Of a stretch of 64,000 bases of DNA, positions 1,709 to 63,525 are shown in pieces; the stretch's first letter is position 1, and each line of letters starts with the position of its first letter. The position numbers and the translations under genes are program-made. Source of the stretch: a virus; IMG/VR virus record IMGVR_UViG_3300044633_003049, positions 124,001 to 188,000 of that record, one strand, 5' to 3'. The notes below the pieces were generated by a model that saw only the letters and a program-made list of their open reading frames with translations, was not told the DNA's origin and did no database searches.

Positions 1709-1709
1709 C

Positions 1710-6467: not shown

Positions 6468-7007
6468 TTATTCGTCGTACAGTGAATTCATATTACTATT
6501 CTTCATTAATCTACCCTTCCCTAACTTGGATAGTGAATTTGTAATGTTATCTAAATCTGTCTTAAGTTTTTCATTCTCTTTCATTAATCTATCTATCTCA
6601 TCATTGTTAACCACCTCCCTAACAACTTCCACAATTTTCTCAACAGGAACCTCTTTAATCACCTCTTTAGTTACGGTTTTACTCTTACCTTTCTTTTCAA
6701 CGATGACCTCTTTAATAACCTCCACAGGTACCTCTATTGTTATTTCTTTAATCACTTCCCTAATGACTTCAATGGGAACTTCAACAATACGTTCAACTAT
6801 CTTTTCAACAATAACTTCTTTGATTGTTTCTTTGGGTACTTCAACGATTTCTCTAATTTTATTACCATTTGGTATCTCACCATATTTTAACAAAGAAAAC
6901 CCTCTATTGAAGGTTTCTTGTGCTTGTTTATCAATATCTGTTATATTATTTAATTCACAAAATTGTGTGAACTCCTTATCCAAGATTAACGTGTGTTTCT
7001 TTTCCAT
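6468..7007 (-). CDS. Val/Glu/Lys repeat protein (EVIKEVPVE repeats)
   Basis: A short N-terminal segment (MEKKHTLILDKEFTQFCELN) is followed by about 80 residues of near-periodic VP-(x)-E-x-I-(K/R)-E-V repeats, then a coiled coil (IDRLMKENEKLKTDLDNI) and a basic tail. I chose the ATG at 7007; a TTG two codons upstream is the other possibility. The alternating Val/Ile and charged residues could form an extended rod or beta structure. The gene overlaps the 3' end of the gp47-like gene by about 30 bases, so it is translated with the recombination nuclease genes. The function is unknown. Confidence 0.6.
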   Translation of the reverse strand: MEKKHTLILDKEFTQFCELNNITDIDKQAQETFNRGFSLLKYGEIPNGNKIREIVEVPKETIKEVIVEKIVERIVEVPIEVIREVIKEITIEVPVEVIKEVIVEKKGKSKTVTKEVIKEVPVEKIVEVVREVVNNDEIDRLMKENEKLKTDLDNITNSLSKLGKGRLMKNSNMNSLYDE

Positions 7008-7794
7008 CTTCAATGTCTTTTATATCGTTTATTGAGAAATGAAGAAACGGTTGTTCATTATCCAAATCGTGAAATGTATATTCATTTGTTTCTATATCAT
7101 AAATACCATACCCGTGATGTTTAACTGTTTCACCAAAGTTTTGTTGTATTAAACTGCCAACCATAATTGCATGTCCTCCGTTTGGTAATGTAAATTGTTG
7201 TCTCTTGTGAATGTCACCACATAACAATAAATCTAAATCAACAAAGTTTAATTGGTCATACGCATCCTCAAACTCATATCCTAAATCAGTTGATAACCCC
7301 ATAATAGGTCCGTGAAATAATCCAACTGTTAATTTACTTTCATCTTTTGTAAACTCAGGACGTGAGTTATGTTGGTATAGTGAATAAACAACCCACTGAA
7401 TATTATCATCCATATAATCACCACTATCTTTATAATAAACAATAGTTGGGTCGTCTAATAACTGAACCACTGGTGTTATACTATCCATACGTTGTGTGTT
7501 ATTTTCCAAGAAATCGTGATTACCTGGTATAATTACAACTTTACCATATTTGGATAATTCTTTTAGGAACCAACTTGTTAATAATAACTGTTCATTAGAA
7601 ATATTTATTTTCTGATGCGCTATGTCCCCCGCAACAACTATACGAATTTCTTCATACTGAATACCTTCTTGATGCCACACGATATTATGTTCTCGTATCT
7701 CATCAATTAATGTTTCAAATTGTTCTCTATACAAATCATGCATTTGAATTGTACGAATATGTAAATCAGCAATGTGAATTATCTTTTTGACCAT
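6976..7794 (-). CDS. 47: gp47-like SbcD/Mre11 nuclease
   Basis: This 272-residue calcineurin-type phosphoesterase is the nuclease partner of the gp46-like ATPase and resects DNA ends for recombination-dependent replication. The metal-binding motifs are in order: IADLH (Asp10, His12), AGDIAH (Asp57), PGNHDF (Asn92, His93), GLFHGP and CGDIHKR. It is slightly shorter than T4 gp47 and ends soon after the phosphoesterase domain. Its 3' end overlaps the Val/Glu repeat gene, and its 5' end overlaps the RecB-like nuclease gene by 16 bases. The group therefore looks like a tightly coupled recombination operon. Confidence 0.9.
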   Translation of the reverse strand: MVKKIIHIADLHIRTIQMHDLYREQFETLIDEIREHNIVWHQEGIQYEEIRIVVAGDIAHQKINISNEQLLLTSWFLKELSKYGKVVIIPGNHDFLENNTQRMDSITPVVQLLDDPTIVYYKDSGDYMDDNIQWVVYSLYQHNSRPEFTKDESKLTVGLFHGPIMGLSTDLGYEFEDAYDQLNFVDLDLLLCGDIHKRQQFTLPNGGHAIMVGSLIQQNFGETVKHHGYGIYDIETNEYTFHDLDNEQPFLHFSINDIKDIEDGKETHVNLG

Positions 7795-8648
7795 CTTGAA
7801 ATATATTTTGATAAATCCATTTGTAGGATTGCGTTATTAATTTGTGATGGGACTTTATATTCAACAAATGTTGCGTCGTCTTTTAATAAAACGACAACAT
7901 TACCCAATAATTTAGTGTCGTCATATTTTGTTCCTTCTAACATCTTACGCAACAATCTACCGTATAATGGTAATTGTAAATAATAATGACCTAAAGCATT
8001 ATCGTGATAGTTGTTGAATGGTGGATATAATCTACCAGTGTAATGATGAACCTCAAAGTTTTTTGGTTGATTCGTCTTCCAATCTGTAATAACAAAACCA
8101 AATCCATCTTTCTCTTTGTTTTGCATCAACCATACTTTATCAGGTTGTCCTGTGTATTGTTCTGTCGGGTCACCTAATACGATTTCAGTATCTAATAATA
8201 CCCCACCTCGTTCTAACATTAAATCAAGAAATTGTTTTCCCGCAATAATCATGTTATCACTCTTACGTTGTTGTTCTTCATTGATTTCAAATATTGGTTG
8301 TCTAACTTCTTTGTAGTTATCAAAACGACCAATTAATTCAGATTCCAATTCAAAGTGAACACGACTACCCATATTAGTTGATAGGTCACCCGCTTGTTTC
8401 CATTCAGCAAGTAATTGTGATTGTCCTTCAGGGTCTCCTTTTGCCATTTTAAGTGCCATACCATCAGCATCAAATGGTTTGTGAAATTTCTTAACAATTT
8501 TAGATACAGATGGAAAGTTCTTTTTGACTTCACCATCAACATCTTTCATATAGTAAATGTGTTCTTCTTCTATGAATGTTAATTCTAATTCTTGTCTTCT
8601 CTTTTCTAATAAATCATTTATCTCTAATGAGATGTCTTTTAAATTCAT
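7779..8648 (-). CDS. RecB/Cas4-like PD-(D/E)XK exonuclease
   Basis: This 289-residue protein carries the full RecB-type motif series: SRVHFELESEL (the early His), LLDTEIVL, YTGQPDKVWL (G-x-PD), FVITDWKTNQ (the D-x-K catalytic lysine) and a C-terminal GHYYLQLPLYGRLL (the Q-x3-Y type motif). This family cleaves single- or double-stranded DNA ends and is common in phage recombination modules. It sits directly between primase and the gp47-like nuclease, with a 16-base overlap to the latter. It has no helicase domain and no visible iron-sulfur cysteines. A role in end processing or host DNA breakdown is the natural inference. Confidence 0.82.
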   Translation of the reverse strand: MNLKDISLEINDLLEKRRQELELTFIEEEHIYYMKDVDGEVKKNFPSVSKIVKKFHKPFDADGMALKMAKGDPEGQSQLLAEWKQAGDLSTNMGSRVHFELESELIGRFDNYKEVRQPIFEINEEQQRKSDNMIIAGKQFLDLMLERGGVLLDTEIVLGDPTEQYTGQPDKVWLMQNKEKDGFGFVITDWKTNQPKNFEVHHYTGRLYPPFNNYHDNALGHYYLQLPLYGRLLRKMLEGTKYDDTKLLGNVVVLLKDDATFVEYKVPSQINNAILQMDLSKYISRWSKR

Positions 8649-8649
8649 G

Positions 8650-9591
8650 TTATTCTATTTGTTTCATTTTATATTCACTTAAGTTTCCTTGCAAATCGGC
8701 GATGTCTTTATCCCCTTCTAATTTAATACTCCAAACTTTCCCCATTAGTTTTCCACAATTCAATCTATGATATAATCTCTCTTGGTCGTTCCACGCATCG
8801 GGGTCAAGTACTATAATTATTTTTTTTGCATTATCGTATAGTTTTTTAAATAAATGTTCACTCATAAACTTTCCCAACATTGGGATTGCGTTGGGAATGA
8901 AAATACTGTCGAACGCTCCTTCAACTATATAAACAGGTTCGTCCCAATTAATTAAACTTTCATTGAAAATAATAACCTCCTTTTGTACCACGGGGTTCAT
9001 ATACTTTCTATTTGTTTTATTTAAAAAAGAACGGGCAATAAAATAATTCAATCTTCTGTTTTCATCATATGAAGGAATGATAATTCTATTTTCATAAGGT
9101 CCTGTTGCACAAAATCCAATATTATAAAGTTGTAACATCAAATCTGTTATATTTCTTTTTTTGATGTAATTGAGTGCCTGCTTATACCCTGGTGTTAATT
9201 TCATTCCAAAACTTGCATCTTTAAATGAAATAAATTCTTTTGGTAATTTAACTGGTTTATATTCTTTTTTATTCCCATCTTCATCTTCTTCTGGTTTTAA
9301 TAAAATATATTTTTTAAGTTGTTTAGGATTACCAAACTTCTTAATTAACTTATAAATTGAACCGTGTGTTTCGTGAGATTCGGCACATACCCAACACTTA
9401 TAAACACCGTATTTGTAATTGATTTCCAAATTGCCCTTACCATCACCTTTTTCTAACCCTTTGATTTCATGAGAACACACAGGACAGTCAAAAGAAACTT
9501 GGTATCTATAATCATTATGATTCTTATAGTCACCAAATATGTCTTCCAAAATTTCAAATACTGCGGAATAATCTACTTCTTGGGTGTTCAT
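8650..9591 (-). CDS. 61: gp61-like DNA primase (DnaG-type zinc ribbon and Toprim)
   Basis: This 313-residue primase has an N-terminal zinc ribbon with CPVC (Cys36, Cys39) and CWVC (Cys66, Cys69). The Toprim region has YIVEGAFDS (Glu224, Asp228), VLDPDAW (Asp263, Asp265) and the downstream acidic GDKDIADL. Its size and domain order match T4 gp61 and DnaG-type primases. It would lay RNA primers for the lagging strand with the gp41-like helicase at 38844-40229. It follows the strong terminator at 9620-9655 but has no TATTTAT element, in keeping with early or middle expression. Confidence 0.9.
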   Translation of the reverse strand: MNTQEVDYSAVFEILEDIFGDYKNHNDYRYQVSFDCPVCSHEIKGLEKGDGKGNLEINYKYGVYKCWVCAESHETHGSIYKLIKKFGNPKQLKKYILLKPEEDEDGNKKEYKPVKLPKEFISFKDASFGMKLTPGYKQALNYIKKRNITDLMLQLYNIGFCATGPYENRIIIPSYDENRRLNYFIARSFLNKTNRKYMNPVVQKEVIIFNESLINWDEPVYIVEGAFDSIFIPNAIPMLGKFMSEHLFKKLYDNAKKIIIVLDPDAWNDQERLYHRLNCGKLMGKVWSIKLEGDKDIADLQGNLSEYKMKQIE

Positions 9592-9619
9592 GTTGTATAT
9601 TATAACAAAAAAATCTTAT

Positions 9620-9655
9620 AAAAAAAAATGGAGGCCAGACACCACGCTGACCTCC
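9620..9655 (-). terminator. Strong intrinsic terminator after RuvC-like gene
   Basis: The minus strand forms GGAGGTCAG / CTGGCCTCC (9 bp with one G-U pair) around an 8-base loop, followed by ATTTTTTTTT. A second, smaller hairpin (ACAAGG / CCTTGT) lies just before it at 9667-9686. The 155-base gap 9592-9746 contains nothing else I can identify. Confidence 0.85.
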
Positions 9656-9746
9656 TACCAACCAAACAAGGCTTTTAACCCTTGTCCCGTCCTATTATTA
9701 AATATATCATTGATAAATCGTAATATAAAATCTAAGTTGCCAAATA

Positions 9747-10358
9747 TTATTTATCCAATTGTTTTATCATATTGAAGTGACCAATAACCGCAGTGGCAGC
9801 ATCACTCATATCAAAATTTTCTTTTTTTAATTTACCGTTCTTATCATACAACCATTGAACATCAGGACATACGTCATTAACGTGATCCCAAATAACTTGT
9901 TTCTTATCAATGTCTTTTGGGTATCCACCAAACAATACATTTCGTCCTTTTTCATTTGGACCCACTAAATCTGGAAATGCATATTTTCTTGCATTATATG
10001 TTGAAATGAATGTTGGAACAATCTCAAAAATATCATAAATCAGTTTACATATCATTGTATTGTATCTCAATAAAGTTCCAACTGTATAAACGTTATTAGA
10101 ATTTAATAATGGTTCCTCAATGATAACACGAGTGATTCCCATATCTTTATATCCTTCCAAATGTCTTTGAAATGTATTGGCCTTCATCATAAGTTCTTCC
10201 AACTTATCTTCAGGTTGTGGTTTAATTTTAGGGGAAAAATGCGTTAGTTCTAATAATTTAGAACCTGAAATATCAAACAAAGCAAACCCAATGGTTTTTG
10301 TACTAATATCAAGTCCCAGTATCTTTGGCTTATTCTTAAATTTTACATCTATACTCAT
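9747..10358 (-). CDS. RuvC-like Holliday junction resolvase (RNase H fold)
   Basis: This 203-residue protein shows the RuvC/RNase H-fold acidic residues: KILGLDISTKTIGFA (Asp17), RVIIEEPLL (Glu81/Glu82) and FDMSDAATAV (Asp183, Asp186). Proteins of this type resolve four-way junctions or debranch DNA before packaging, a job done by gp49 in T4 with an unrelated fold. It leads into a strong terminator and precedes the primase. The catalytic set is complete, so an active enzyme is expected, although its preference for Holliday junctions over other structures cannot be read. Confidence 0.85.
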   Translation of the reverse strand: MSIDVKFKNKPKILGLDISTKTIGFALFDISGSKLLELTHFSPKIKPQPEDKLEELMMKANTFQRHLEGYKDMGITRVIIEEPLLNSNNVYTVGTLLRYNTMICKLIYDIFEIVPTFISTYNARKYAFPDLVGPNEKGRNVLFGGYPKDIDKKQVIWDHVNDVCPDVQWLYDKNGKLKKENFDMSDAATAVIGHFNMIKQLDK

Positions 10359-10396
10359 AATTCTAATATAAAGTAAATTAAAATAAATGTAAATCG

Positions 10397-11899
10397 TTAG
10401 AAATCAATTTTTACCGACACAATTTGAGCACCAACTCTTGGTATTGGTGATGCCAATTTACCCATAACCAATGTTTCTTTATTATTATTCAATAAAGCAA
10501 CTTCGGTCATCGTTGGATTTCCAGTGGTATATGTTGGGTTTTGAGACTTATCAAAAACTCCATTGGGTAAATTCAAATCAAAACTCATTTCTTCAACATC
10601 ACTTGCCCTAACTAAATTAACCGTTCCAAATGTCGTTCCACTTGTATTTGGGAAAGTTGTTAATGATGAAGTATATTGTGTTCCGCTCGCAATTTTAGTT
10701 TGATTTAACGTAAATGTATATCCTGTTTTTAAATCATTTATAGAATTCAATTCACTTGTTAAATTAATTATATTCCATGAAGTATGACTTGGGGTATTTC
10801 CTGTGGTGAATTGATAAAGTACATTAAATTGATTTCCGGTATATCCATTATTTAAATAATTAAAACTATTACCACTAAATTGAACGGTAACAACTTCGTT
10901 ATTTGACGACCCCGTTACTTTCATAAAATAATTACATGGTAATTTAGTGGTGTCTAAGGTATATGTAATCCAAAGAGTTTGTCCAGTTGTTAAACTTGTA
11001 ATTGGATCACTATTAGATACTAATGTATTAACAAATGGTGCAGGTAACGTATAAGTTCTACTTGAAGCTTGGTCTAACGCTACCACAATTTCTTCATCGT
11101 CAATAACTATTAATTTATGATTTTGAAATATTTTACCAACTACATTCGCAGTATTACCTGTTGAGTCTACTAAATCCATATAGTCGATTGTTAATCTACT
11201 ATTTAAATTTGAAACTATAGTTTTTGAACTACCAGTTGTCATGTAAAATGTTGTTCCCGTACTTCTATGGTATTTTAAATCGGGTATTGTTACACTAAAA
11301 TATTGTTTGTCGGTTTTTGTATTTGGTGATGTAACACCTGTATATGTACTAATATAGTCATCATATTTAAAGAAACTATTAACATCAGTACCACCACTAT
11401 AATGTAAAATTGCAATTGCTTTTTGTTCTTCTGGAGATATTACAACTTGATTACCAATTGTATTAGTAATTGTTGTTCCTGTATTTGATGTTTGTCCCGA
11501 AGATGATGAATAACCAAAAAATGATTTTATTCCCAAATATTTACTATTTGAAAAATTTGTAAATCCAGTAGTTGCGTAGCCAATTGGATTTTTTTCCCAA
11601 ACAACATTTGATGTCCATCCAGTGTCTGTCATAACATTTCTACAAACTGATGTTATTTGATTACTTATTGGAACACCAAAAAATGTACTACCACTTGTAT
11701 ACCAAAAAGGGTATTTTACATTTATATCTTTATCAAATGGTTCCAACGTAGTTTGTGTACTTGGTCCACTGTAGTTATATTCTGAATCACCAACTGCAAA
11801 ATAACTAACATTAAAATTACCAGATGCAATTGCATTTCTACCTTTTTGTGTTAATCTTGCGGCCACTGTTGCCGAATATGTTGGGTTTAAAAAGCTCAT
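10397..11899 (-). CDS. Putative tail fibre or baseplate protein
   Basis: This 500-residue Gly/Thr/Ser-rich protein has N-terminal ARLTQKGRNAIASGNFNVSY followed by FAVGDSEY. I associate this kind of attachment segment with phage tail fibre and baseplate proteins. The body is beta-rich (repeated TGxT, YTLxx and NxxVTVQFSGN strands) with no enzymatic motif. It is the most distal member of the long structural gene run and directly follows the 1003-residue protein. A TATTTAT element ends 5 bases before its ATG. The virion role is inferred from composition and position. Confidence 0.6.
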   Translation of the reverse strand: MSFLNPTYSATVAARLTQKGRNAIASGNFNVSYFAVGDSEYNYSGPSTQTTLEPFDKDINVKYPFWYTSGSTFFGVPISNQITSVCRNVMTDTGWTSNVVWEKNPIGYATTGFTNFSNSKYLGIKSFFGYSSSSGQTSNTGTTITNTIGNQVVISPEEQKAIAILHYSGGTDVNSFFKYDDYISTYTGVTSPNTKTDKQYFSVTIPDLKYHRSTGTTFYMTTGSSKTIVSNLNSRLTIDYMDLVDSTGNTANVVGKIFQNHKLIVIDDEEIVVALDQASSRTYTLPAPFVNTLVSNSDPITSLTTGQTLWITYTLDTTKLPCNYFMKVTGSSNNEVVTVQFSGNSFNYLNNGYTGNQFNVLYQFTTGNTPSHTSWNIINLTSELNSINDLKTGYTFTLNQTKIASGTQYTSSLTTFPNTSGTTFGTVNLVRASDVEEMSFDLNLPNGVFDKSQNPTYTTGNPTMTEVALLNNNKETLVMGKLASPIPRVGAQIVSVKIDF

Positions 11900-11927
11900 A
11901 TATTATAAATATTATTTTTTTATTTTA

Positions 11928-14900
11928 TTAACATTGTGGTATGTGGTAATTAAATACTCCCGAATTTAACTCCCAACTTGTATTAGACGAATCGATAAAA
12001 CAACTAGTTGTTATAGGATTACCAATGCTATTTCTAGCTATAGCGGTACAAGTTGTTGAAGAACCTCCACCTAAACCATTAAATAAATTACCATTTGCAA
12101 CAAATAAATTATAATCTACACTATCGAGGAATATCCTCATAATTGTACCATTTGTACATCCATCTGAATCACATGTCGTGCCAATGTCGGCCAAATTATT
12201 TGTCAAACCGTTTGATGTTGGTGTTGGTGTTGGTGTCGGTGTATTAGTTGATGTATTTGTAGGTGTATTTGTAGGTGTATTAGTAGGTGTATTAGTTGGT
12301 GTAACCGTATTAGTTGGTGTGTTAGTTGGTGTTTTAGTAGGTGTAGGAGTATTGGTAGGTGTTTTGGTAGGTGTAGGGGTATTGGTAGGTGTTTTAGTAG
12401 GTGTTATAGTTGGGGTAGGTGTATTAGTTGGAGTATGTGTAGGTCTAGGTGTTTGTGGTATAGGATTTGAACAGTTATATTGATCATCATTGTAATCAAT
12501 ACCAACTGGATTTGTTAAACCATATCTTGGTTTTTGATATTTATATTTACATCTATTGAATATTGTATTAGAAATTAAATTTCCACCTGTCCATAATGTT
12601 GTCGCTGGTACAAATTGTTCAACCACTTTTACCCAATATGGACTCATTTTATTTATATATTCATTTATCGAAATGAAATCATATGGTGTAAATCCTGTGT
12701 TAGTGTTGGTAATGTAACTATTAAATACTTCCGTTAAACCAGTATATGATTTATCGTATTTTGATGTATTTGAATTTATCACCAATGTGTTTAATATGTT
12801 TTCAATATATTCATTAAATGTTACACCTGTTTGTGGTGTTAAACCTCCAAAGGATAATTCTAAATTTCTTGATTGTCTATAAACGTCATATTCAATTCCT
12901 TGTGATGGTGATAAATGGACACTAATATTTTTTCTATTTAAAACAAGTTGTTGGTCATTTACATTAACTTTTTTATTATCAATTTTTGATGTTAAATCAA
13001 ACCCATAATCTAATCCAGGTAAAGTTCTAAATGTGTCAAAATAATCTTCACCATATGTGTATGGTTTTGACATTGTTTTAATATATTTTGTTCGACCTGT
13101 TAATTGAAAAACTCCGTTTACAAATGACCCGCTTGATAAATTTGTATCAATTATATCTGACGACCTATGGTCAAGTGTTGTATCGTACCAACCAGAACCT
13201 TTTCCAAAAAATATATCACTTTGGGTATTTGTTGTTTTTCTAGGTAATCCATTTTCATCAATTGGATATTCATCTCTACTTAATGTTGATGAACTTATTG
13301 TTAATCCAGTTAGATATGTGTATCCCGATGTTGTATCCGTAAGTCCTGAACTATTTACGTACATAGTATATTCAAACCCACTACCTATTGTATATCCAGT
13401 AACTACTGTATCAACTTTTGTTCCTTGGATTACGTCGTATAAATCGGTTTCTAAATTAGGGTTGTTTGGTAATTTTGTTACATTATAAACAAACTCATTA
13501 ATTTTAATTATTGGTTCGGGAGCTCCGATAAACTTTAAAAAGAATTCCAAAGACGCTCGTGTTCCTTTTGATTTATATATGTAAGCAAGATTAACTAATA
13601 ATCTTCTATAAAATTCATATTCAGCTTCCACTAAAGTTTTACCTAATGATATACCATTAAACACAGTATCTTGTCTTAAGTATAAAGTATCCTCTAATGA
13701 TTTTTCATCAAATAAATTAATGGTTGATAATCCTAATGTTTGTGAAAGATTCTTCAATAAAATATCAGGAAAATTATTTATTCCATCATAACTTACATTA
13801 CGCATGTAAGCAATATTATCAATATATTTTTTTACTCTATCGAATGATTGACCATATAATTGAAAGATGGATTGTGCCTTTTGGTCGTCAGTATCAAATT
13901 CAAATAATTGTGGTGCTGTTAAAAATCTTACAATTAAGTTAGATTTATAATCATCTATCTCATCACCTAAACTACTTAATTGACTAATATAATCAGCATA
14001 ATCAATACCGACTATTTGTAAATTCCAACCATCTTTCGTTGTTGGCCAATTAACATATACATTAACAATTTCAGTTTTAGTTTCATCAAAACTATCTTTC
14101 GGTACCTTAAAACTTGCTTGATATTTTGGGTTAGTTTCTCTATTTAATAAAAGAGTTTCTAATTCGTCTAACCCACTAAAAAATTCTTCGGTAATTCCAT
14201 TATTTGGCCTTATTAAAACATTTTCAGTAAATCCTGTTAACCCATTAAATGGATTTCCTTTAACTTTTAATTTAATTAAATTAGAACTATCAGGTTCGGT
14301 ATATGAAACAATATCATATGTTAAACCACTATATTCACTATTATCTAAACGTTGTATGGTGTATTTTGTATATGATGAATAAAAATTTCTAATTGTATTA
14401 TCCACATTAGGTAAAGTATTACTTAATGGTTTAATAAGTGTAATATCAAAAGGATTAAATAAAATTGATTTTTGAATGTAAAATTCAGTTGTCTTTGCAT
14501 TTTCACTATAAGTTATTCCCGATAATGTTACGTCAATACTTTTAATGGGACTATCTTTATCAACTAATATAGCTGCAGGAAAGTTTGTGATAATATTTGA
14601 TATAGATACTTGTAATCTTTGTTTTAATGAACCGTATAAAGATTTTCCGGCATCGTTAATCCCACCTTTAAATTTAATTTTTTCTTTTTTCTTTACACTA
14701 CCATTTTGTGTTGTTTCACCACTTAACTCTTCTTTTAAATCTTTTAATGTTAAGAAATCGGAAAATGGTTGTGATTTAAAATTTTTGCTATCTTTTTCAG
14801 GAATGACTCTATTAATATCAAAGTTCGTATTAGTCAGTTGACTAGTACCATCTGTAATCTGTGTACCAACTAATTTATCGCTAAACGTTTCTACACCACT

Positions 14901-14939
14901 AGCAGCTTCACTTGGAACTTTATATCTTACTTTAGCCAT
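11928..14939 (-). CDS. Large baseplate or tail protein with Thr-Pro-Asn repeat linker
   Basis: This 1003-residue protein has a long N-terminal region (1 to about 825) that includes YKSKGTRASLEFFLKFIGAP, reminiscent of the KGT...LE segment in phage tail protein I families. A flexible TPTNTP-type linker follows at about 828-907. The C-terminal cap (about 908-1003) is rich in Cys, Gly and Thr. The linker is the same sequence type as in the 1989-residue protein encoded at 17278-23247. I infer a baseplate-anchored protein that displays a small distal domain. The ATG overlaps the stop of the preceding gene (TAATG). Confidence 0.62.
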   Translation of the reverse strand: MAKVRYKVPSEAASGVETFSDKLVGTQITDGTSQLTNTNFDINRVIPEKDSKNFKSQPFSDFLTLKDLKEELSGETTQNGSVKKKEKIKFKGGINDAGKSLYGSLKQRLQVSISNIITNFPAAILVDKDSPIKSIDVTLSGITYSENAKTTEFYIQKSILFNPFDITLIKPLSNTLPNVDNTIRNFYSSYTKYTIQRLDNSEYSGLTYDIVSYTEPDSSNLIKLKVKGNPFNGLTGFTENVLIRPNNGITEEFFSGLDELETLLLNRETNPKYQASFKVPKDSFDETKTEIVNVYVNWPTTKDGWNLQIVGIDYADYISQLSSLGDEIDDYKSNLIVRFLTAPQLFEFDTDDQKAQSIFQLYGQSFDRVKKYIDNIAYMRNVSYDGINNFPDILLKNLSQTLGLSTINLFDEKSLEDTLYLRQDTVFNGISLGKTLVEAEYEFYRRLLVNLAYIYKSKGTRASLEFFLKFIGAPEPIIKINEFVYNVTKLPNNPNLETDLYDVIQGTKVDTVVTGYTIGSGFEYTMYVNSSGLTDTTSGYTYLTGLTISSSTLSRDEYPIDENGLPRKTTNTQSDIFFGKGSGWYDTTLDHRSSDIIDTNLSSGSFVNGVFQLTGRTKYIKTMSKPYTYGEDYFDTFRTLPGLDYGFDLTSKIDNKKVNVNDQQLVLNRKNISVHLSPSQGIEYDVYRQSRNLELSFGGLTPQTGVTFNEYIENILNTLVINSNTSKYDKSYTGLTEVFNSYITNTNTGFTPYDFISINEYINKMSPYWVKVVEQFVPATTLWTGGNLISNTIFNRCKYKYQKPRYGLTNPVGIDYNDDQYNCSNPIPQTPRPTHTPTNTPTPTITPTKTPTNTPTPTKTPTNTPTPTKTPTNTPTNTVTPTNTPTNTPTNTPTNTSTNTPTPTPTPTSNGLTNNLADIGTTCDSDGCTNGTIMRIFLDSVDYNLFVANGNLFNGLGGGSSTTCTAIARNSIGNPITTSCFIDSSNTSWELNSGVFNYHIPQC
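12216..12455 (-). repeat. Thr-Pro-Asn coding microrepeats
   Basis: The sequence is a dense array of degenerate 12-base units (GGTGTATTAGTT-like on the plus strand) encoding TPTNTP and TPTKTP repeats. Such arrays change length readily by slippage or recombination. Confidence 0.85.
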
Positions 14940-15847
14940 TATCCTGTTATGTTATCTAAATTTAAGGTTTCATCAACGCTTGTTCTTTCTTCACGAACTT
15001 CATATAATGTCTCATTAAATTGGTCTTTAATTTCGTAAAGATTGTATTGTTTATAGATATTTTTATCCTTATCGTAGATTGTGTAAATACCTGGAGCAAT
15101 TGCCTTAGTTTGGTCACCGTAAAGTGCGTGTGCCAATGTTGATGCATCATGTTCAACCATTTCAATTTCAACCGTTGTTGGGTTGAAAAATGTATTTGTT
15201 AAAATAATAGTTTGACCTGGTTCGCCGATAAATGGAACCACATTAGGTCTACTTGATGGTGATGAACTTGGTGTTACTGTTAAAAATATAAAATTAGATT
15301 GGGAATCGGTATATTGATACCTAATTGCCTTATCTGTTGAGTTTGATAAATTTGCGGTAGTTGGTACACAATAAAAAGAAGAAGTTACCAATCTATAAAA
15401 GTTTGGAACTTTTTGATTATTATTATTATTAATGTATTCAATTCTATAACCAACTAAACCTTGTGGTGTGAATTTTCCTTGGTCGTCCACCGGTACATTA
15501 CCAATGTCAATAACCAATCCTCTAACTGATGGAAGTGAAGCTAAAACTCCACAATCCATAATATTTGTCCTAACTTGTTTAGGACGTAAATGTAATGTGT
15601 AAATTCCCAATTCGGAGAATTGTCCTGCTTGTAATTTTAAATTATATAATCCACCTAAAATTTCTTTGTTTGCAACTCCACCTGTCGTTTCATTATGAAA
15701 CACCGGTGTTAATATTGCTGTCGAGTCTAATTTTGTTAATGTTGGTGTAACGTTCGCAGTTCTATCTGAAACGTAATGATATAATATCTCTACGTCTGCT
15801 GGTGATACGTCTGCGGGTCTTACAATACCATATGATCCTACTGCCAT
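14939..15847 (-). CDS. Structural protein of unknown function
   Basis: This 302-residue protein begins MAVGSYGIVRPADVSPADVE and is rich in beta-forming residues. It contains GIYTLHLRPKQVRTNIMDCG and a Ser/Pro run (TPSSSPSSRP). I do not recognise a family. It lies between two fibre-type genes, has a TATTTAT element 12 bases before the ATG, and shares TAATG with the downstream 1003-residue gene. Its tight coupling to a large tail protein suggests a connector, neck or wedge accessory component of the tail, but that is only context. Confidence 0.55.
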   Translation of the reverse strand: MAVGSYGIVRPADVSPADVEILYHYVSDRTANVTPTLTKLDSTAILTPVFHNETTGGVANKEILGGLYNLKLQAGQFSELGIYTLHLRPKQVRTNIMDCGVLASLPSVRGLVIDIGNVPVDDQGKFTPQGLVGYRIEYINNNNNQKVPNFYRLVTSSFYCVPTTANLSNSTDKAIRYQYTDSQSNFIFLTVTPSSSPSSRPNVVPFIGEPGQTIILTNTFFNPTTVEIEMVEHDASTLAHALYGDQTKAIAPGIYTIYDKDKNIYKQYNLYEIKDQFNETLYEVREERTSVDETLNLDNITG

Positions 15848-15872
15848 TTTCTTTTATTAATAAATATAAATC

Positions 15873-16436
15873 TTATTGTTTTCTAACTTTAAAATACCCA
15901 TTTCCATATATACTCAATTCACCCATACTATCAATTTCACTTAACCTGAAGTTCCTTTCCATAACTCCCAATTTACCTCGTTCCACAAAAATGTCCGAAT
16001 AAACGGTTGGTTGTTCCACAAACCCCAAGAAATGTTCGTTTCTTGTTAGGGTATAGTTAATCACTTCCTCCTTGGTAAACCCCGTAGTGCTACCTGTAAT
16101 CATGGTGTACCCATCAGAATAATCTCTATATTGTAAACTTGTGGAACCAGTTGTATTGTATGTATAATCAAATGTATAACCTGTCCAAGTTGTCCCTCCT
16201 GTTATTGATCCACTTGTTAATGTTTGTGTGTATCCTGTTGCTCCGTATTTTTTTAATTCGGATAACTTACTACCACCAATACCTAAATAGGTGAAACCTG
16301 TTGTGGTATAACCCGTTGCAGGGTTATATTCATAGTCATTTAAATAATCCGAACCACTATTTGGTGTTAGTGTGTCTGACGATATGTTCGTATATGGAAT
16401 TGTGAATCCAGTAAGTGTTCCAAAAAAAGTTGACAT
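15873..16436 (-). CDS. Small Thr/Gly/Tyr-rich structural protein
   Basis: This 187-residue protein has repeated TGYT and TGFT motifs (GYTTTGFTYLGIGGSKL, SGSITGGTTWTGYTF) in its first two thirds. The C-terminus is more regular (FVERGKLGVMERNFRLSEID) with alternating charged and hydrophobic residues. Similar TGFT/TGYT composition runs through the whole fibre region. A TATTTAT element lies 17 bases before its ATG. It has no enzymatic motif and no membrane segment. A baseplate or fibre component is likely. Confidence 0.5.
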   Translation of the reverse strand: MSTFFGTLTGFTIPYTNISSDTLTPNSGSDYLNDYEYNPATGYTTTGFTYLGIGGSKLSELKKYGATGYTQTLTSGSITGGTTWTGYTFDYTYNTTGSTSLQYRDYSDGYTMITGSTTGFTKEEVINYTLTRNEHFLGFVEQPTVYSDIFVERGKLGVMERNFRLSEIDSMGELSIYGNGYFKVRKQ

Positions 16437-16516
16437 ATAAATTATTTACACCTATAAATATCTTTATTAGGTTTTAGGTAATATAAAGATTAATTTAATG
16501 TAAATAAAGGGATAGA

Positions 16517-17242
16517 TTAAACGGCCGCAGGAATATACCAATAATCAAAATCAACATAATTAGTTGTTGAGTTATGTGTTAACCTCATGGTTCCTTTTAT
16601 GGAAACAGGATCAGAATCTAATGATGTATTAGCACTACCCGTTAATGTAAACGTTTTACCTGATTTAGTGATAGAAAAACTACTAAATGGTCCGTATTGA
16701 TAATCGCCATAAACTGTGACTCCTCCCGATGTTCCACTCACATAAGATAATGTAAAACCTGTAGCATCTATATATGATAAAGTATCAAAAGTACCAACAA
16801 CGTAATTACCTACAATCTTTCCATTAGATTCCGAAAACCCATTGTATGTATAACCTGTACCTGTTTGATTAAAAGTATTAACTTGTGCTGTTGTAGGGTA
16901 ACCGTTATATATGTTGGTGAATGTTCCTGTATTTGGTTGATACACCGTTAATGCTGCCGTTGTAATGTCTTGTGTTGCAGTTGTACTACATGAGGTTGTA
17001 CTTGTTAATTTAACATAGTTATCTAAACCTGTTATACCTGAAATTCCATAACCATTAAGTAATGTGCCACCATTTACCGATGAAGTTGCGGTTTTAGTTA
17101 AACCTGTAACAATGGTTCTATCATAAACCGCAGCATCAGTTGCGACATCCCATCTATAGATTTCAACTGTAAAATTATTTGGTACTGATGATGTTCCTGT
17201 TAATTGTACACTAACTTGAGAACTTGGTAAAAATACTGGCAT
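16517..17242 (-). CDS. Beta-rich fibre or adhesin protein
   Basis: This 241-residue protein starts MPVFLPSSQVSVQLTGTSSV and consists of beta strands rich in Thr, Ser, Gly and Tyr. An internal NGYPTTAQVNTFNQTGTGY segment looks like the linkers in the neighbouring giant protein. The C-terminus ends FDYWYIPAAV. Its composition and strand pattern match the C-terminal non-repeat domain of the 1989-residue protein just upstream in transcription, so it may be an additional distal fibre domain on a separate polypeptide. A TATTTAT element lies 25 bases before the ATG. Confidence 0.5.
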   Translation of the reverse strand: MPVFLPSSQVSVQLTGTSSVPNNFTVEIYRWDVATDAAVYDRTIVTGLTKTATSSVNGGTLLNGYGISGITGLDNYVKLTSTTSCSTTATQDITTAALTVYQPNTGTFTNIYNGYPTTAQVNTFNQTGTGYTYNGFSESNGKIVGNYVVGTFDTLSYIDATGFTLSYVSGTSGGVTVYGDYQYGPFSSFSITKSGKTFTLTGSANTSLDSDPVSIKGTMRLTHNSTTNYVDFDYWYIPAAV

Positions 17243-17277
17243 TTTTTAAATTTTTATTTCTTTTATAATAAATATCC

Positions 17278-20200
17278 TTAATCTATAATTTGAGTAATAT
17301 TTCGTTTATTTGTTCCCGCAGTTGAATCGTCATATTGTAATTGGAATACACCACCAGAAGACGGTGAAGTTTTATTGACATTGAAAGTATAATTTGCTCC
17401 ACTAGGTAATGCCCAATAACCTGAATATGTCGTTTGGTTAGGACCGGTGATATTCACTGAAATACTATATGAGGATGCCGCTCCTGATGGATCTAACACT
17501 CCATATCCAGATAACGTTCCTGAACTGGCGAATGTTGAATTACCATATAACCATATATATTTAGTTGCACCACTAGTATTTGTTACTGTAATTGTCGCGG
17601 TACCATTACTTGTTACCGGGTATGTACCGGATACAACGGTATATGCGAATTGTGATGCACATATGATTTCACTATGTGATGAATATGTAACACATCCATT
17701 TGCGTCTGTCACTCTTAAGTAATAATAACCACAACCTAATGAAGCATATCCCTCTGATGGTGACGATCCTGGTACGTTAAGTGTATTAACAATTAAAGTA
17801 TCATTTGCATAATCGTAATCAGTGTAAGAAGTTGCGGTGGTGTCTTTATATAATGTATAAGTTTTAGGGAAAACTCCACCTGTTGAGGTTACTTGAAGTG
17901 ATCCGTTTCCTGGTACCGTTTCATTAACTACCGATGTTATTGTTGCAGTTTGTACTGTTGGTTGTGTTATTGTTTGTGAATATGAATGTACACAACCTAA
18001 ACTATCTTTAACATAAACTGAATGTGCTGCAGCAGTTAATGAATTAAATGTTTTATCTAACGCAAAATATGTAACATTATCTATTGAAGTGCTGTATCCA
18101 GTTCCTGACCCACCTGACCCACCTGTTACCGCTATTGAACCATTTGAACCACCATTACAACTTACATTTGTAATTGTAAATGTCGCATTTGGTGCGGTTT
18201 TTGCTAAGTTACCAACTGAAACTGAAGCTACAGTTCCAACTCTATTATTATTTCTAGCATAACCAGTGTATGTGCCTCCAGCTAAACTACTAAATGTTCC
18301 ACTAGCTTGCCAATTATCATTATCTCTTGAATACTCATATGGTGCACCATTACCACCACTTGCGGTTAATGTAAATGCGGCAGTACTATCATCATAACAT
18401 GTTTGAACCGTTGAACTGCTACTTACCGTTAATGCCGGTAGTGATGGTGTAGGAGTTGGTGTTCCTGTAGGAGTATTAGTTGGTGTCGCTGTGTTAGTTG
18501 GGGTATTAGTTGGAGTATTAGTTGGAGTATTGGTCGGAGTATTTGTTGGTGTTGGTGTATTGGTCGGAGTATTAGTTGGTGTATTAGTTGGTGTGTTAGT
18601 AGGTGTTACCGTATTTGTTGGTGTGTTAGTAGGTGTGTTAGTAGGTGTGTTAGTAGGTGTGTTGGTTGGAGTTACTGTATTAGTTGGGGTAGGTGTTGGG
18701 GTTGGTCCTAACACAACAATACTAATACCGAATGAACAGTTTACTGTTGGTGTTGGGGTATTAGTTGGTGTAGGGGTATTGGTCGATGTAGGTGTGTTAG
18801 TTGGGGTATTAGTTGGCGTATTTGTCGGTGTGTTAGTAGGGGTTGGTGTGTTAGTAGGTGTGTTAGTAGGAGTATTAGTTGGTGTATTAGTATTAGTCGG
18901 AGTATTAGTTGGTGTGTTGGTTGGCGTTGCAGTATTAGTCGCAGTTGGGGTTGGGGTTGGTCCTAACACAACAATGCTAATACCAAATGAACAGTTTACA
19001 GTTGGTGTTGGTGTATTGGTTGGTGTAGGTGTGTTGGTCGGAGTATTAGTTGGTGTTACAGTATTAGTCGGAGTATTAGTTGGTGTGTTGGTAGGTGTAT
19101 TAGTAGGTGTTACCGTATTGGTCGGAGTATTAGTTGGGGTATTAGTTGGTGTTACCGTATTTGTTGTCGTAGGTGTTGGAGTTGGTGCTAACACAACAAT
19201 GCTAATACCAAATGAACAGTTTACAGTTGGTGTTGGAGTATTAGTTGGAGTTACAGTTGGGGTAACCGTATTAGTTGGTGTATTAGTAGGGGTTGGTGTA
19301 TTGGTAGGTGTTGGAGTTGGACTTAATATTGCAACACTAACACCGAATGAACAGTTTACTGTTGGAGTTGGTGTATTGGTTGGAGTTATAGTTGGTGTAA
19401 CCGTATTAGTTGGTGTTGGAGTTGGTGTTGGTACGACATAACAAACTCCTGTTTCTAAAATTCTAATATTTGCGGGTGGATAATACGTTTCAGTATCTAC
19501 AACAGGAACTAATGATTGATATTGAATTGGGTCTGTAATTTCATATATAGCCTCAGAGACATAAATAACTTCAGTTATAAAACCATTATTAATCGTATTA
19601 AATCTATTGTATTGTACATAACCATATGAATCGACAATATATGTTGTTCCCGTATAATATTCACAAGCAGTCACACCCGTACTTTGTGTAAATCCACTTT
19701 GAATAAAAGTTATTTTATCAAACGGGTTTTCAGATTCATAATCTGTTATGTTGTATGACGTTAGTGTACCTCCTGTTTGAGGGATATTTAAATATAAAAA
19801 CTGATTCGTTTCATTTGGACCAATTGTTATTTTTTCAGATGTAAGTAAACTCGTTGACCCTGTAAAAATATTAACATTAAAAGTAACACCAACGTATGAT
19901 GGTACAGTGTTACCACTAATATCGGTTAAATAAAAATTTATACCATTATCATCATTATCAAGGTCACTAATTTCTTCTGCATTAATTAAAATCGTAAAAG
20001 GATTACGATATGTAAATTTACCACTACTAAATGGAAAAATCTCTCTATAAATTGAATCCGAGGCCTCGGTATATCCTGTTCCGGTTAAATTATTATTGTA
20101 AAGAAAAAAACTTGTAGGTTCAGTTCTATTATCCACAAAACCTCTACTGACTGTTGCACCAGTAGTTGCTCCTGTGTAAAATGTATTTGTATTCCAATTT

Positions 20201-59594: not shown

Positions 59595-59632
59595 ATTGTA
59601 TTTGTTAAAGTTTTTAAGTTATTTACTTTCTT

Positions 59633-59639
59633 ATAAATA
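59633..59639 (-). promoter_or_regulatory. Candidate late promoter box before tail tube gene
   Basis: The coding strand reads GATATATTTATAAG, with the core 38 bases before the ATG at 59594. This is one of the longest leaders in the set. Confidence 0.4.
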
Positions 59640-59674
59640 TATCTATATTGGAAAATAATTTTATTTTAAGTTTT

Positions 59675-59773
59675 TTATTGGAAATACTTGTTTATGTCAA
59701 TTATTTTTCGTAGTTTTTTACAGGCTCCAGTATCTAGTTCCAGTTTACTACTCTCCTTTAATAATTTAATATT
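59675..59773 (-). pseudogene. Possible decayed gene fragment (start-less open frame)
   Basis: After an in-frame TGA, 32 codons read protein-like text, LLKESSKLELDTGACKKLRK then IIDINKYFQ, before a stop. No ATG, GTG or TTG start is available. The Lys/Leu/Ile-rich amphipathic character and clean end suggest the C-terminal remnant of a lost gene. It may equally be a chance reading frame. Confidence 0.25.
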
Positions 59774-59806
59774 TCAATAATAAATACTAGTATATCTAGT
59801 TCCAGT
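59731..59806. repeat. 14-base direct repeat pair TATCTAGTTCCAGT
   Basis: Two exact copies (59731-59744 and 59793-59806, plus strand) lie 62 bases apart between the sheath and tube genes. They flank a TATTTATT element on the minus strand, so they may be a regulatory site, the scars of a deletion or insertion, or a recombination target. Confidence 0.6.
59780..59786 (-). promoter_or_regulatory. Additional candidate late promoter box upstream of tube gene
   Basis: The coding strand reads TAGTATTTATTATTG between the two 14-base direct repeats. It lies 186 bases before the tube ATG, so any transcript would have a long leader. Confidence 0.3.
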
Positions 59807-59863
59807 ATTCTGGGTATAATATAATAGTATAATTGTTATATAATATGGTTCTACGTGGAGCAT

Positions 59864-59893
59864 TAAAAAAGGGTACCATTTCTGATACCCTTC
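59864..59893 (-). terminator. Intrinsic terminator after tail sheath gene
   Basis: The minus strand has AAGGGTA / TACCCTT (7 bp) with a 10-base loop, followed by TTTTAATG. It lies 26 bases after the sheath stop codon. Confidence 0.85.
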
Positions 59894-59918
59894 TTATTTT
59901 TATATATCTCCTTTTAGA

Positions 59919-62750
59919 TTAGATATTGTCAAATGAAGCTCCTGTTGGAGTGATTACAAATTCCAAATCAATGAATTCTAAAGAACGAGTTGGTTTGATA
60001 TAAATCTTACCTCTTAATGTGTTAGCATCGATGTCCTCTGGATCATTAGATACACTCACACGGAAGTCATACAAACCTCTTTCTTTCTTAATTGATTCCA
60101 AGATAGGATTTACTAATCTTAAGAACTCTTGTCTTACTTGGTCGTCATTTTGTTCAAACAATAACCTTACAGCTACCGCAGAAATCAATTTTCTAGCTCT
60201 TAATAATAATCTTCTTACGTTGATTCTATCTAAAGCCGACTCTCTAACTTGTAACGTTTTATTACCCCATATAATGGTACCTGTATCAGAGAATGTTGCA
60301 ATTGGGTTGATTCTCGCCTTATATAACTCATCTCTTTCGTCAAGAGTAAGTTTCTTTTGTGCTTTGATTGCGTTTACCAAACCTCTACTGTAACCCGCAA
60401 CTGCGAACCAAGGATAAGATACGTTGTCAGTTAAGGCGATGTTCTTAACAACCTCACCTGTTGGTGGAATATATAATTGAGTTGCATTATCCGTGTCTCT
60501 TACTTGAATCCAAGGCCAATATGTGGCTGAATAGTTTGAGTCAACTGCGATACCGTCTAAATCGTCAATAACGTTAGATGCAATAGTTTCATTTGGTGCT
60601 CCAATTATATAAATTGAATCCGCTCTATCAGTTTCAATCATGTCAATTGCTTGAGTTGTTAATGAACTATGGTCGTAGAAGTTAATACCTGGAGTTGCAA
60701 ATACGTTAATATCTACGGCCTCAGGATTTGCATATGTTTGAATACCTTCTAAATAAGCATAATAATCAGAGTTTCCATTTGCAGTGTCAAACAATCCACC
60801 ATTTGTTGTAAGACCTGAAATATATGTTAATTTTCCAAATATATAACCGTCACCATATGTTCTTACTTGTCTGTAAATGTCCCAACCATCAAAACCACCA
60901 CATACGGCAAATGTAAATTTACGGAAGTTAATACTATCTAATTTACCTTTATCGGTACCTTCTAAATCATAAGGTGTTGTTTGGTACATTAATCCTGAAA
61001 CTGTATTTCCAGTTATTGTAGCTGCGTTTATAGATAAGTGAAATCCGTCTGTTGATCCTTTTTGAGTTGCTTCTGTTGAACATTTATATTTAAACAAATC
61101 GGAGTCAAAATTAAAATTACCATCAGAAGATAAACCTAAAGATGTTTTTCTAAATTTATCACCATTACTTGTTATGTCATCATAAATTGTTTCACCAGAA
61201 TCAAAAAATTCAGTTTTATAAAGAACACTACCTAATGTTGTTGAACCTGATAAAGTTGCATTTGTAAAACCTTTAAATCCTGCAGGAAATGCATTTGATG
61301 GTGCGTTAGAGTCCATAAGTAACATAATGTATTTAGAATTCAAAGTATACTCACCAGTTGATGTACCTATTTTTCTAGCAACATATCCTGCAACGTCTGG
61401 ATTCATTGAACATCTTGAGAATTTTTCCAAAACAACCATGTTTTCATCGGAATCATTAAAATCTCTAACTAATATATCAAATTCACCTGTTTCAATATTA
61501 ATATTTTGAATTGTGATTTTAATTTCCTGATTTGCGGCGTTTCCGTCAGAAATTGTAATAACATCAAATAAATCATCAACTTTACCACCACGAACTTCAG
61601 AAACCACAGTAGGTGACTTTGGTGTGTCCCAAGTATTTGAGAAGTTGTCACCTTCCGCATTATATACTTCAGTTAGGCTTAAACCTCTAATTAAACCTTG
61701 ATTATATAAGTTTTTTGTTAAGTTCGGATAAACTTCGTGAACATATAATGGAACATCGTTACCATCTTTATCATATGGACTTGTTCCTAAAACTTTAGTT
61801 ATGTATTTTGTTGACGTTGAATCTAAACTACACGTGAAAACCTTAGCACCTGTAGTTCCTGTAACATAAATATTAAATTCCGATAATGGGTCACTTGTTA
61901 ACGTTGCCCCACTAATAGTAAAAGATGTGTTTCCAGTAACTTGAAAATTTAAAGATTCTTGTGAATAATTTCCTCTTGATCTTAATGCCGCCATAACAAT
62001 TTCCTTATCATATACTGAAGTTGCGGTATATGTATATTTTGTTGTGGTAAAATTCATTGAACTAGCAGCATAAACAAATAAGTAACTATACACTTCGGTA
62101 CCGTTAGTATTGGTAAACACGTTATTCCAATTTTTTATAGTTGCGGTTCCAATAGGACTTGTTTTTTGATTTCCCGTTAAACCTGATGTTGCTGATGATG
62201 GAACATTTCCAATTGTAAACCAATCACCTGTAGATAAACCGCTACCGTAATTAGTGACTATATAATTTGTAACCGTTGTACCAGTTGAATTGGTTTTACC
62301 AGATAATGAACTATAAAAAGTACTATATGTTGGGTTTACAATGTCCTCAGCTGTTGGTGTTGTAATACCTGTAGTTGAACTTGGAGTTTGTGTTAAGTCA
62401 ACAGATATACCACCTATTGTTTTAATGCCGAATGTTTTTCCTGCTTTGTAACCTGTCTTACCTAATACTCTTGTTACAAATAATTGATTTGACTCTTGTA
62501 AATAAGATTTAGCGACATAACCTAATTCATATTTTGGATTGCCAGCACCATCTTTTTCAGGTGAGGTTGGTCCGAAGTATGTTTTAAATTCGTCAAAATT
62601 TGAAATTAATATTGGTTCAAAAGCGGGACCTTTTAAGGTTTCACCCACTAATCCCAATGTTGTAACACCTATACTTTGTGCTACGAATGTTAGATCTTTC
62701 TCTGATGTATAAACACCAGGAGACACGAAAACTCTGTTATTACTTGCCAT
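59919..62750 (-). CDS. 18: Tail sheath protein, gp18-like
   Basis: This 943-residue contractile sheath subunit is much longer than T4 gp18 (659). The conserved N-terminus is VSPGVYTSEKDLTFVAQSIG then VTTLGLVGETLKGPAFEP. The C-terminus has DRINVRRLLLRARKLISAVA, VRLLFEQNDDQVRQEFLRLV and SNDPEDIDANTLRGKIYIKP, which form the core that joins neighbouring subunits. The extra length is in a Thr/Gly/Ser-rich middle (about 110-600), probably outward-facing domains. It faces the plus-strand regulator gene across a 116-base region and ends at its own terminator. Confidence 0.93.
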   Translation of the reverse strand: MASNNRVFVSPGVYTSEKDLTFVAQSIGVTTLGLVGETLKGPAFEPILISNFDEFKTYFGPTSPEKDGAGNPKYELGYVAKSYLQESNQLFVTRVLGKTGYKAGKTFGIKTIGGISVDLTQTPSSTTGITTPTAEDIVNPTYSTFYSSLSGKTNSTGTTVTNYIVTNYGSGLSTGDWFTIGNVPSSATSGLTGNQKTSPIGTATIKNWNNVFTNTNGTEVYSYLFVYAASSMNFTTTKYTYTATSVYDKEIVMAALRSRGNYSQESLNFQVTGNTSFTISGATLTSDPLSEFNIYVTGTTGAKVFTCSLDSTSTKYITKVLGTSPYDKDGNDVPLYVHEVYPNLTKNLYNQGLIRGLSLTEVYNAEGDNFSNTWDTPKSPTVVSEVRGGKVDDLFDVITISDGNAANQEIKITIQNINIETGEFDILVRDFNDSDENMVVLEKFSRCSMNPDVAGYVARKIGTSTGEYTLNSKYIMLLMDSNAPSNAFPAGFKGFTNATLSGSTTLGSVLYKTEFFDSGETIYDDITSNGDKFRKTSLGLSSDGNFNFDSDLFKYKCSTEATQKGSTDGFHLSINAATITGNTVSGLMYQTTPYDLEGTDKGKLDSINFRKFTFAVCGGFDGWDIYRQVRTYGDGYIFGKLTYISGLTTNGGLFDTANGNSDYYAYLEGIQTYANPEAVDINVFATPGINFYDHSSLTTQAIDMIETDRADSIYIIGAPNETIASNVIDDLDGIAVDSNYSATYWPWIQVRDTDNATQLYIPPTGEVVKNIALTDNVSYPWFAVAGYSRGLVNAIKAQKKLTLDERDELYKARINPIATFSDTGTIIWGNKTLQVRESALDRINVRRLLLRARKLISAVAVRLLFEQNDDQVRQEFLRLVNPILESIKKERGLYDFRVSVSNDPEDIDANTLRGKIYIKPTRSLEFIDLEFVITPTGASFDNI

Positions 62751-62789
62751 TGATTTTTGTTTGGTTAAATTGTTTTTATTACTTATCTA

Positions 62790-62796
62790 ATAAATA
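62790..62796 (-). promoter_or_regulatory. Candidate late promoter box before tail sheath gene
   Basis: The coding strand reads AAAGATATTTATTAG, with the core 39 bases before the sheath ATG. It abuts an ATCTTTG / CAAAGAT dyad (62796-62816). Confidence 0.42.
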
Positions 62797-62802
62797 TCTT
62801 TG
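62795..62802 (+). promoter_or_regulatory. Candidate host-type promoter (TATCTTTG) for the plus-strand regulator
   Basis: TATCTTTG is an exact fit to the Bacteroidetes TAnnTTTG -7 box. TTG at 62770-62772 lies 22 bases upstream, close to the usual -33 spacing. Transcription would start near 62808 and give a leader of about 60 bases for the gene at 62867. Confidence 0.45.
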
Positions 62803-62863
62803 TTTTTACCAAAGATTTCCTAACTTTTATTAAAAAGATAGTTATTTATCTTTAATTATCTTT
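62796..62863. promoter_or_regulatory. Cluster of AAAGAT/ATCTTT boxes (putative operator)
   Basis: Within 68 bases there are five copies of AAAGAT or its complement: 62796, 62811, 62834, 62848 and 62858. Four form two inverted repeats: ATCTTTG-N7-CAAAGAT (62796-62816) and AAAGATA-N6-TATCTTT (62834-62853). The region separates the divergent sheath and regulator genes and overlaps promoter-like boxes on both strands. Confidence 0.5.
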
Positions 62864-62866
62864 TAT

Positions 62867-63025
62867 ATGGAAAACAAACAAAAAAACGTTAAAATAGGTC
62901 AGAAACACCACGAAATGTTAAAAAATTTTTGTGATAAAAATGGATTAAAAATTTATAAAGTATTGGAAAAACACATTGAGGAACTTTGTAAACCTAAAAA
63001 GAAGGACATTTACGGAGATGATTAG
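62867..63025 (+). CDS. Putative ribbon-helix-helix DNA-binding regulator
   Basis: This 52-residue protein is the only convincing plus-strand gene here. It reads MENKQKNVKIGQKHHEMLKN, then FCDKNGLKIYKVLEKHIEEL and a basic tail. A short strand (NVKIG) followed by two helices with a KNGLK turn is the ribbon-helix-helix pattern of Arc/MetJ-like repressors. The upstream region carries five AAAGAT-type boxes and a Bacteroidetes-type promoter match. Its stop overlaps the end of the convergent gene at 63022 by 4 bases. A TATTTAT on the plus strand (62843-62849) also precedes it. I infer an autoregulated transcription factor. Confidence 0.62.
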   Translation: MENKQKNVKIGQKHHEMLKNFCDKNGLKIYKVLEKHIEELCKPKKKDIYGDD

Positions 63026-63525
63026 TATAGATAAGATATACTAATTTTTGACCCAACTTTAGGATTGGAGAGATATGTAATTTCATCGTCTCCCGTAATC
63101 TCAAACCCAACTGACTCTTCTTCAGCTAATCCATTGGTTTCAACTGTTATTAAACTATTGATGTAATTACTTAAGTTAAACACCGTTGATGTAGAGTAAA
63201 TAAACTCTTCTTTTTCATATTGTAATAATTTACCCTTATTATCTAATATTACACTATTAATTCCTTTATAAAATTGTACCGTTATTATTGAGTTATTTAA
63301 CGGAGGTTCAATAAAAGTAATCGTACTTGTAAAGTTTATAAACGTAAAACTTAAATCTCTTATTTGACCAATACCGTTCATTGAAACTGAAAATAAGGTT
63401 CCGATATTAGTTCCAACACTAAAATTAGTTTGTGTTCCGTCCGCAACAAAACTGACCGTTGTTATATTAATCGGCATGTTTTGACTCTGACTTGAAACGA
63501 CATTATCTTTTATAAATTCGTACAT
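63022..63525 (-). CDS. Beta-rich virion protein, tandem paralogue A
   Basis: This 167-residue protein is almost all beta strands, with ADGTQTNFSVGTNIGTLFSV, TVQFYKGINSVILDNKGKLL and VETNGLAEEESVGFEITGDD. It is clearly related to the partial upstream protein encoded at 63536-64000 (compare DGIQTVFDVGESIGTLFGV and VEINGLAEQQGIGFIVSDD). The family is not recognised. A TATTTAT element overlapping the end of the upstream paralogue lies 15 bases before the ATG. A neck, tail-completion or decoration role is plausible from its place next to the sheath. Confidence 0.6.
   Translation of the reverse strand: MYEFIKDNVVSSQSQNMPINITTVSFVADGTQTNFSVGTNIGTLFSVSMNGIGQIRDLSFTFINFTSTITFIEPPLNNSIITVQFYKGINSVILDNKGKLLQYEKEEFIYSTSTVFNLSNYINSLITVETNGLAEEESVGFEITGDDEITYLSNPKVGSKISISYLY

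Follow-up and report, generated by a model that had tools for sequence, protein, structure and literature searches.

Does a 52-residue protein, encoded divergently from a phage tail sheath gene, control both its own synthesis and that of the sheath, through the short repeats found between the two genes? The locus lies in a stretch of 64 kb, corresponding to bases 124001-188000 of a 211,784-base virus record and indicated below as the window. A first-pass annotation had described a lone plus-strand gene, a gap of 116 bp and five AAAGAT/ATCTTT boxes within it: all of these were recovered. Their positions are reported in Table 1, together with those of the neighboring promoter-like and terminator-like elements; the last column gives either the supporting evidence or the conservation among the sequences of related loci.

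Table 1. Features of the divergent locus, in window coordinates. RHH, ribbon-helix-helix; haplotypes are the distinct intergenic sequences described in the text.
Feature	Position	Strand	Evidence or conservation
Terminator-like hairpin after the sheath gene	59866-59895	-	13-bp stem, -16.5 kcal/mol, z -4.9, U-rich 3' arm
Tail sheath gene	59919-62750	-	phrog_23 E 5.6e-65, PF04984, PF17482
TATTTAT, apparent late-type sheath promoter	62790-62796 (ATAAATA on plus)	-	invariant, 66/66 haplotypes
TATCTTTG, putative Bacteroidota-type -7 element of the RHH gene	62795-62802	+	invariant, 66/66 haplotypes
Five AAAGAT/ATCTTT boxes	62796, 62811, 62834, 62848, 62858		within the 116-bp gap
Dyad 1, ATCTTTGTTTTTACCAAAGAT (boxes 1 and 2)	62796-62816		both boxes invariant, 66 haplotypes
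Dyad 2, AAAGATAGTTATTTATCTTT (boxes 3 and 4)	62834-62853		box 3 invariant, 66 haplotypes
TATTTAT, possible second late-type RHH promoter, inside dyad 2	62843-62849	+	51/66 haplotypes
Box 5, ATCTTT	62858-62863		tandem to box 4, 10-bp period
RHH gene, 52 codons	62867-63025	+	ORF call

Gene layout and promoter-like boxes

The 116 bp separate the start codons of the two divergent genes, the sheath ATG being at 62750; it is this gap, and not the RHH gene, that begins at position 62751. At its other end, the RHH gene overlaps by its stop codon a convergent gene (63022-63525). Going by the ORF list, the remaining plus-strand ORFs of at least 60 aa in the window are shadows of minus-strand genes.

Within the 70 bp preceding 47 window genes, sense-strand TATTTAT is found 14 times, versus 1.5 occurrences expected, which supports its earlier reading as a phage promoter. 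Genes featuring the box include those for tail fibre, tail tube and sheath; it is absent from the ribonucleotide reductase, helicase, exonuclease, recombinase and SSB genes. From this distribution, TATTTAT is the apparent late promoter of the phage. The 14 genes are all on the minus strand (e.g. at 15847, 17242, 45186, 56151, 59594 and 63525). Elsewhere in the record, a 232-aa ORF (L247:1348-2046, record about 207.9-208.6 kb) gives weak matches to a late-sigma PHROG and to sigma-70 region 2, and is a candidate for the late sigma of the phage. The plus-strand TATTTAT, also proposed by the first-pass annotation, is present inside dyad 2, but is not strictly conserved.

In Bacteroidota the -7 consensus is TAHHTTTG, with transcription starting 4-5 nt downstream (PMC6847099). 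For the TATCTTTG copy of the RHH gene the predicted start is A62808, a base which is also invariant. Four more copies are found just upstream of minus-strand genes in the first 16 kb of the record (1560, 3893, 6159 and 15271; L248, record 1-18000), each of the four being preceded by a shared TTTG-ATATYC element that starts about 24 bp ahead of it. TTTG-ATATYC and TATCTTTG, placed just upstream of genes, make up a second promoter class. The earlier reading of TATCTTTG as an early-type -7 box is sustained by this recurrence at 1-16 kb, but the RHH copy is not preceded by TTTG-ATATYC. Upstream of window genes TAnnTTTG is not enriched (1 match versus 1.6 expected), so that the early-type reading rests on the genes at 1-16 kb; no promoter signal was found in the record stretches at 62-98 kb.

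The phage is likely to infect Bacteroidota: when baseplate and sheath C-terminus are compared, the Flavobacterium phages immuto are among its nearest relatives in culture; a Microcystis phage comes about equally near. The Bacteroidetes lake phages encoding bS21 (PMC9723584) were also considered, and no S21 gene was found in the record.

On the sheath side, the first-pass annotation had spoken of a sheath operon. The term goes too far: downstream of the sheath gene there is a strong terminator-like hairpin, which a simple terminator scan does not list, and the tail tube gene has a TATTTAT of its own. For these reasons the sheath is probably transcribed alone, and would hence be the sole target of the RHH protein. 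The 324-bp gap between tail tube and sheath (59595-59918), where the hairpin is located, also contains two TATTTAT copies and a repeated ACTGGAACTAGATA.

The 52-residue protein and its relatives

Assignment of the 52-aa protein to the RHH fold is well supported by profile comparisons. Arc-like repressor PHROGs match all 20 relatives analyzed (best E 2.5e-5), with residues 1-45 of the window protein covered. The RepB-RCR_reg profile also matches 20 out of 20 (best E 4e-4), ParG 18, Omega 12 (best E 0.006) and 56B_RHH 4; RepB and ParG are the most frequent Pfam matches. Throughout the 20 relatives the RHH profiles recur in the correct register. The window protein alone gives weak family E-values: its RepB/CopG and ParG scores are under the curated cut-offs, it has no match to PF07764 (Omega), and its PDB profile matches, which include 56B, Omega and ParG, are not significant.

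The strand predicted to face DNA is QKNVKI (Q5-K6-N7-V8-K9-I10), where polar or basic residues alternate; N7 and K9 are invariant among the relatives. In an ungapped alignment to P22 Arc, whose score is not significant, Q5, N7 and K9 fall on Arc Q9, N11 and R13, which are the operator contacts of Arc. By hhalign, pairwise similarity to Arc and Mnt is not significant (probability about 1%, E 0.04-0.05). The protein is accordingly not filed as a member of the Arc/Mnt subfamily; it may nevertheless work like Arc.

An AlphaFold model of the monomer, of low confidence (pLDDT 64), features helices at about 12-25 and 30-41 and an unformed N-terminal strand, and a Foldseek search with it returned nothing useful. 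Since an obligate dimer is expected, the poor monomer model speaks neither for nor against an RHH fold. A basic C-terminal tail, CKPKKKDIYG (CKPKKKDIYGDD, window 62987-63022), is almost invariant, though outside the predicted helices; a similar stretch, KKDIMGD, is present at the N-terminus of Omega. No second copy of the protein was found in the record.

Relatives of the protein are found in about 300-400 uncultivated phage contigs, and none in the cultured-phage or GTDB collections. Among the loci examined whose upstream region was readable, nearly all place it divergently from a sheath gene, with a gap mostly of 114-127 bp. One locus (L018, near 3528) has lost the start codon and leader of the sheath gene as far as TTATAAATATCTTTG; an assembly join may be the cause. 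The distant sheath relatives in L088 and L089 have no divergent RHH gene among their listed features or ORFs.

The box array and its conservation

Both dyads, ATCTTTG-N7-CAAAGAT and AAAGATA-N6-TATCTTT, are perfect over 7 bp. The first-pass annotation had suggested, as a check, a search for AAAGAT clusters elsewhere. In the window no other 116-bp stretch contains at least four boxes, and in the 211,784-base record each perfect dyad has a single mismatch-free occurrence. Near-matches to the dyads are about as common in the record as those to reversed-pattern controls, and the three examined (L083, L084, L085) fall in coding sequence or at its extreme end; for the 10-bp direct repeat, one further exact copy is present, at 122735. 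When the gap was dinucleotide-shuffled 20,000 times, at most four boxes were obtained, never five; yet some 6-mer reaches five copies in 32% of the shuffles. As the gap is very A/T-rich, such single-sequence statistics are weak when taken alone: the decisive evidence for an array beyond chance is its conservation among relatives.

Conservation was evaluated on 66 distinct intergenic sequences (haplotypes), which are related, so that the counts do not represent independent events. Boxes 1-3 do not vary, and boxes 4-5 are conserved at 86-100% per base. Mean identity is 98% in the boxes (22 of 30 columns invariant) versus 82% in the rest of the gap; for the RHH gene, it is 70% at third codon positions and 46% at four fourfold sites. 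When the box mask is shifted along the gap, an equally high contrast is found at 2 out of 115 positions: the promoter bases beside the boxes are therefore conserved too. A further well conserved segment, which is not a box, is located beside box 2 (62817-62828, TTTCC..AC.TTT).

Spacing is also maintained. The 8-bp spacer within dyad 1 is fixed in all 66 haplotypes, and that of dyad 2, also of 8, is kept in 64. Successive right-hand boxes are spaced by exactly 10 bp in 91 cases out of 94, and by exactly 20 in the other three; about half of the haplotypes feature one additional box, with the same 10-bp period. By these sequence patterns the conserved array reads as a protein-binding footprint, and the 10-bp steps would look like sites for dimers bound side by side on one helix face.

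Two explanations not involving a regulator bound to the boxes may be weighed at this point. The repeats could act in RNA, where a leader hairpin, formed by box 3 with box 4 or box 5 near the start codon, would limit translation; the window leader indeed folds at -12.3 kcal/mol (z -3.1). The structure varies, however, between haplotypes (median z -1.9), and no compensatory change is found at the boxes: dyad 1 is broken in 2 of 462 cells and dyad 2 in 32 of 528, and where the box 3-box 5 stem does show compensation (17 cells), all of it is outside the boxes. Moreover, dyad 1 straddles the predicted start, and so would not be whole in the RNA, and extra copies added in 10-bp phase are a signature of DNA. 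A role in RNA is thus very improbable. Even less credit is given to the idea that the boxes are stacked -7 elements of the TAnnTTTG type, their repetition being incidental. The resemblance of TATCTTT to TAHHTTTG (PMC6847099) suggests it, but there is only one full TATCTTTG copy, and the two orientations, the fixed spacings and the extra 10-bp copies do not fit.

A third alternative accepts the footprint and assigns it to another protein, either a host factor or another phage regulator, the RHH protein acting elsewhere. Conservation marks a bound site, not which protein binds it, and protein and boxes show no covariation, as both hardly vary. Against this, the array is directly upstream of the gene for a DNA-binding protein and its dyads are unique in the record, which together are the usual mark of autoregulation. 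A different binder is accordingly judged improbable.

Proposed regulation and known systems

An autoregulatory RHH repressor, which also holds down the divergent sheath promoter, is probably the best explanation of the locus. It is supported by RHH homology, the conserved array, the promoter-like boxes, the fixed divergent synteny and the unique dyads. RHH dimers would bind the AAAGAT boxes upstream of their own gene: dyad 1 would place them over the -7 box and start site of the RHH promoter and at the same time, on the opposite strand, against the sheath TATTTAT and over the DNA just upstream of it, while at dyad 2 and the 10-bp tandem boxes further dimers would load side by side across the RHH leader. 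The protein would limit its own synthesis, and the sheath promoter would be held down until the repressor is outpaced by phage late transcription or by template replication. Four points count against such a repressor. The monomer model is poor, with its N-terminal strand unformed, and the family E-values of the window protein alone are weak. The inverted half-sites are 14-15 bp apart, centre to centre, a spacing which is not usual for RHH proteins (the tandem boxes are at 10 bp), and the RHH promoter does not feature the TTTG-ATATYC of the other TATCTTTG promoters.

The main rival to repression of the sheath is its activation: the RHH protein would bind the same boxes, repress itself and activate the sheath promoter. 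The geometry allows it, as dyad 1 is directly upstream of TATTTAT, where an activator would sit, with box 1 touching the upstream edge of the promoter box and box 2 about 15 bp further upstream. No such array is present at other TATTTAT genes in the window, and the sheath might need extra output. RHH proteins are able either to activate or to repress, as described for AmrZ (PMC3325190). On the other hand, box 1 shares one base with TATTTAT, and dyad 1 also covers the predicted RHH start. Activation is considered unlikely, and repression is retained as the presumptive sign.

The RHH regulator of itself and of the sheath, as first proposed, thus stands in its RHH and operator parts, by virtue of the profiles and of the 66-haplotype footprint; binding of the boxes by the RHH protein, repression and early timing are what we infer from them. 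The general early/late switch, also suggested, is unsupported: the perfect operator dyads are found only here, indicating local control and not a genome-wide switch. A wider and rather doubtful reading, offered tentatively, is that a lineage of uncultivated T4-like jumbo phages may have a dedicated, autoregulated RHH regulator for one virion gene. Its early expression would come from a host-type promoter, and it would act as a timer, withholding the sheath, and perhaps its polymerisation, until baseplate and tube are ready.

For late genes of T4-like phages, the usual explanation of timing is that sigma and clamp factors act alike on all late promoters. If the repressor model is true, a conserved repressor on one structural gene would mean that tail assembly is also controlled at the level of an individual gene. 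The system is small, complete and testable, being composed of one 52-residue protein and one 116-bp DNA.

Among known systems, T4 late transcription (gp55 sigma, TATAAATA) shares with the present phage the T4-type replication and tail genes, a short promoter box upstream of structural genes and a sigma region 2-like ORF, here located elsewhere in the record. The sense-strand box of the present phage is TATTTAT, the reverse complement of most of TATAAATA. To our knowledge, the T4 sheath gene has not been described as being under the control of an RHH protein. RepB-RCR_reg/CopG (PF10723) and ParG (PF09274) are also RHH proteins, but act in plasmid copy number and partition. The Omega repressor of pSM19035 (PF07764) is likewise a small RHH protein, which binds cooperatively to an operator composed of arrayed short repeats, palindromic and non-palindromic (PMC4803016). 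Omega, however, binds 7-bp heptads at plasmid copy and partition genes, while the boxes here are of 6 bp, at 10 and 14-15 bp. Membership of the Omega family was considered and set aside: the gap has no contiguous heptads, and no PF07764 match is above cut-off.

Phage RHH repressors whose operators lie among divergent promoters are a kind of system already known from P22 Arc/Mnt. A limited literature search returned no T4-like lineage in which a tail structural gene is under conserved control by an RHH protein through this layout of operators. Arc and Mnt (immI) are phage RHH repressors of similar size (53 aa for Arc), with operators also located in a short divergent intergenic region and overlapping promoters, and Arc aligns in register with the RHH protein, with similar strand residues. 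Their operator sequence and spacing differ from those of the AAAGAT array, and the gene regulated in P22 is the antirepressor of a temperate phage, while the neighbor here is a virion structural gene.
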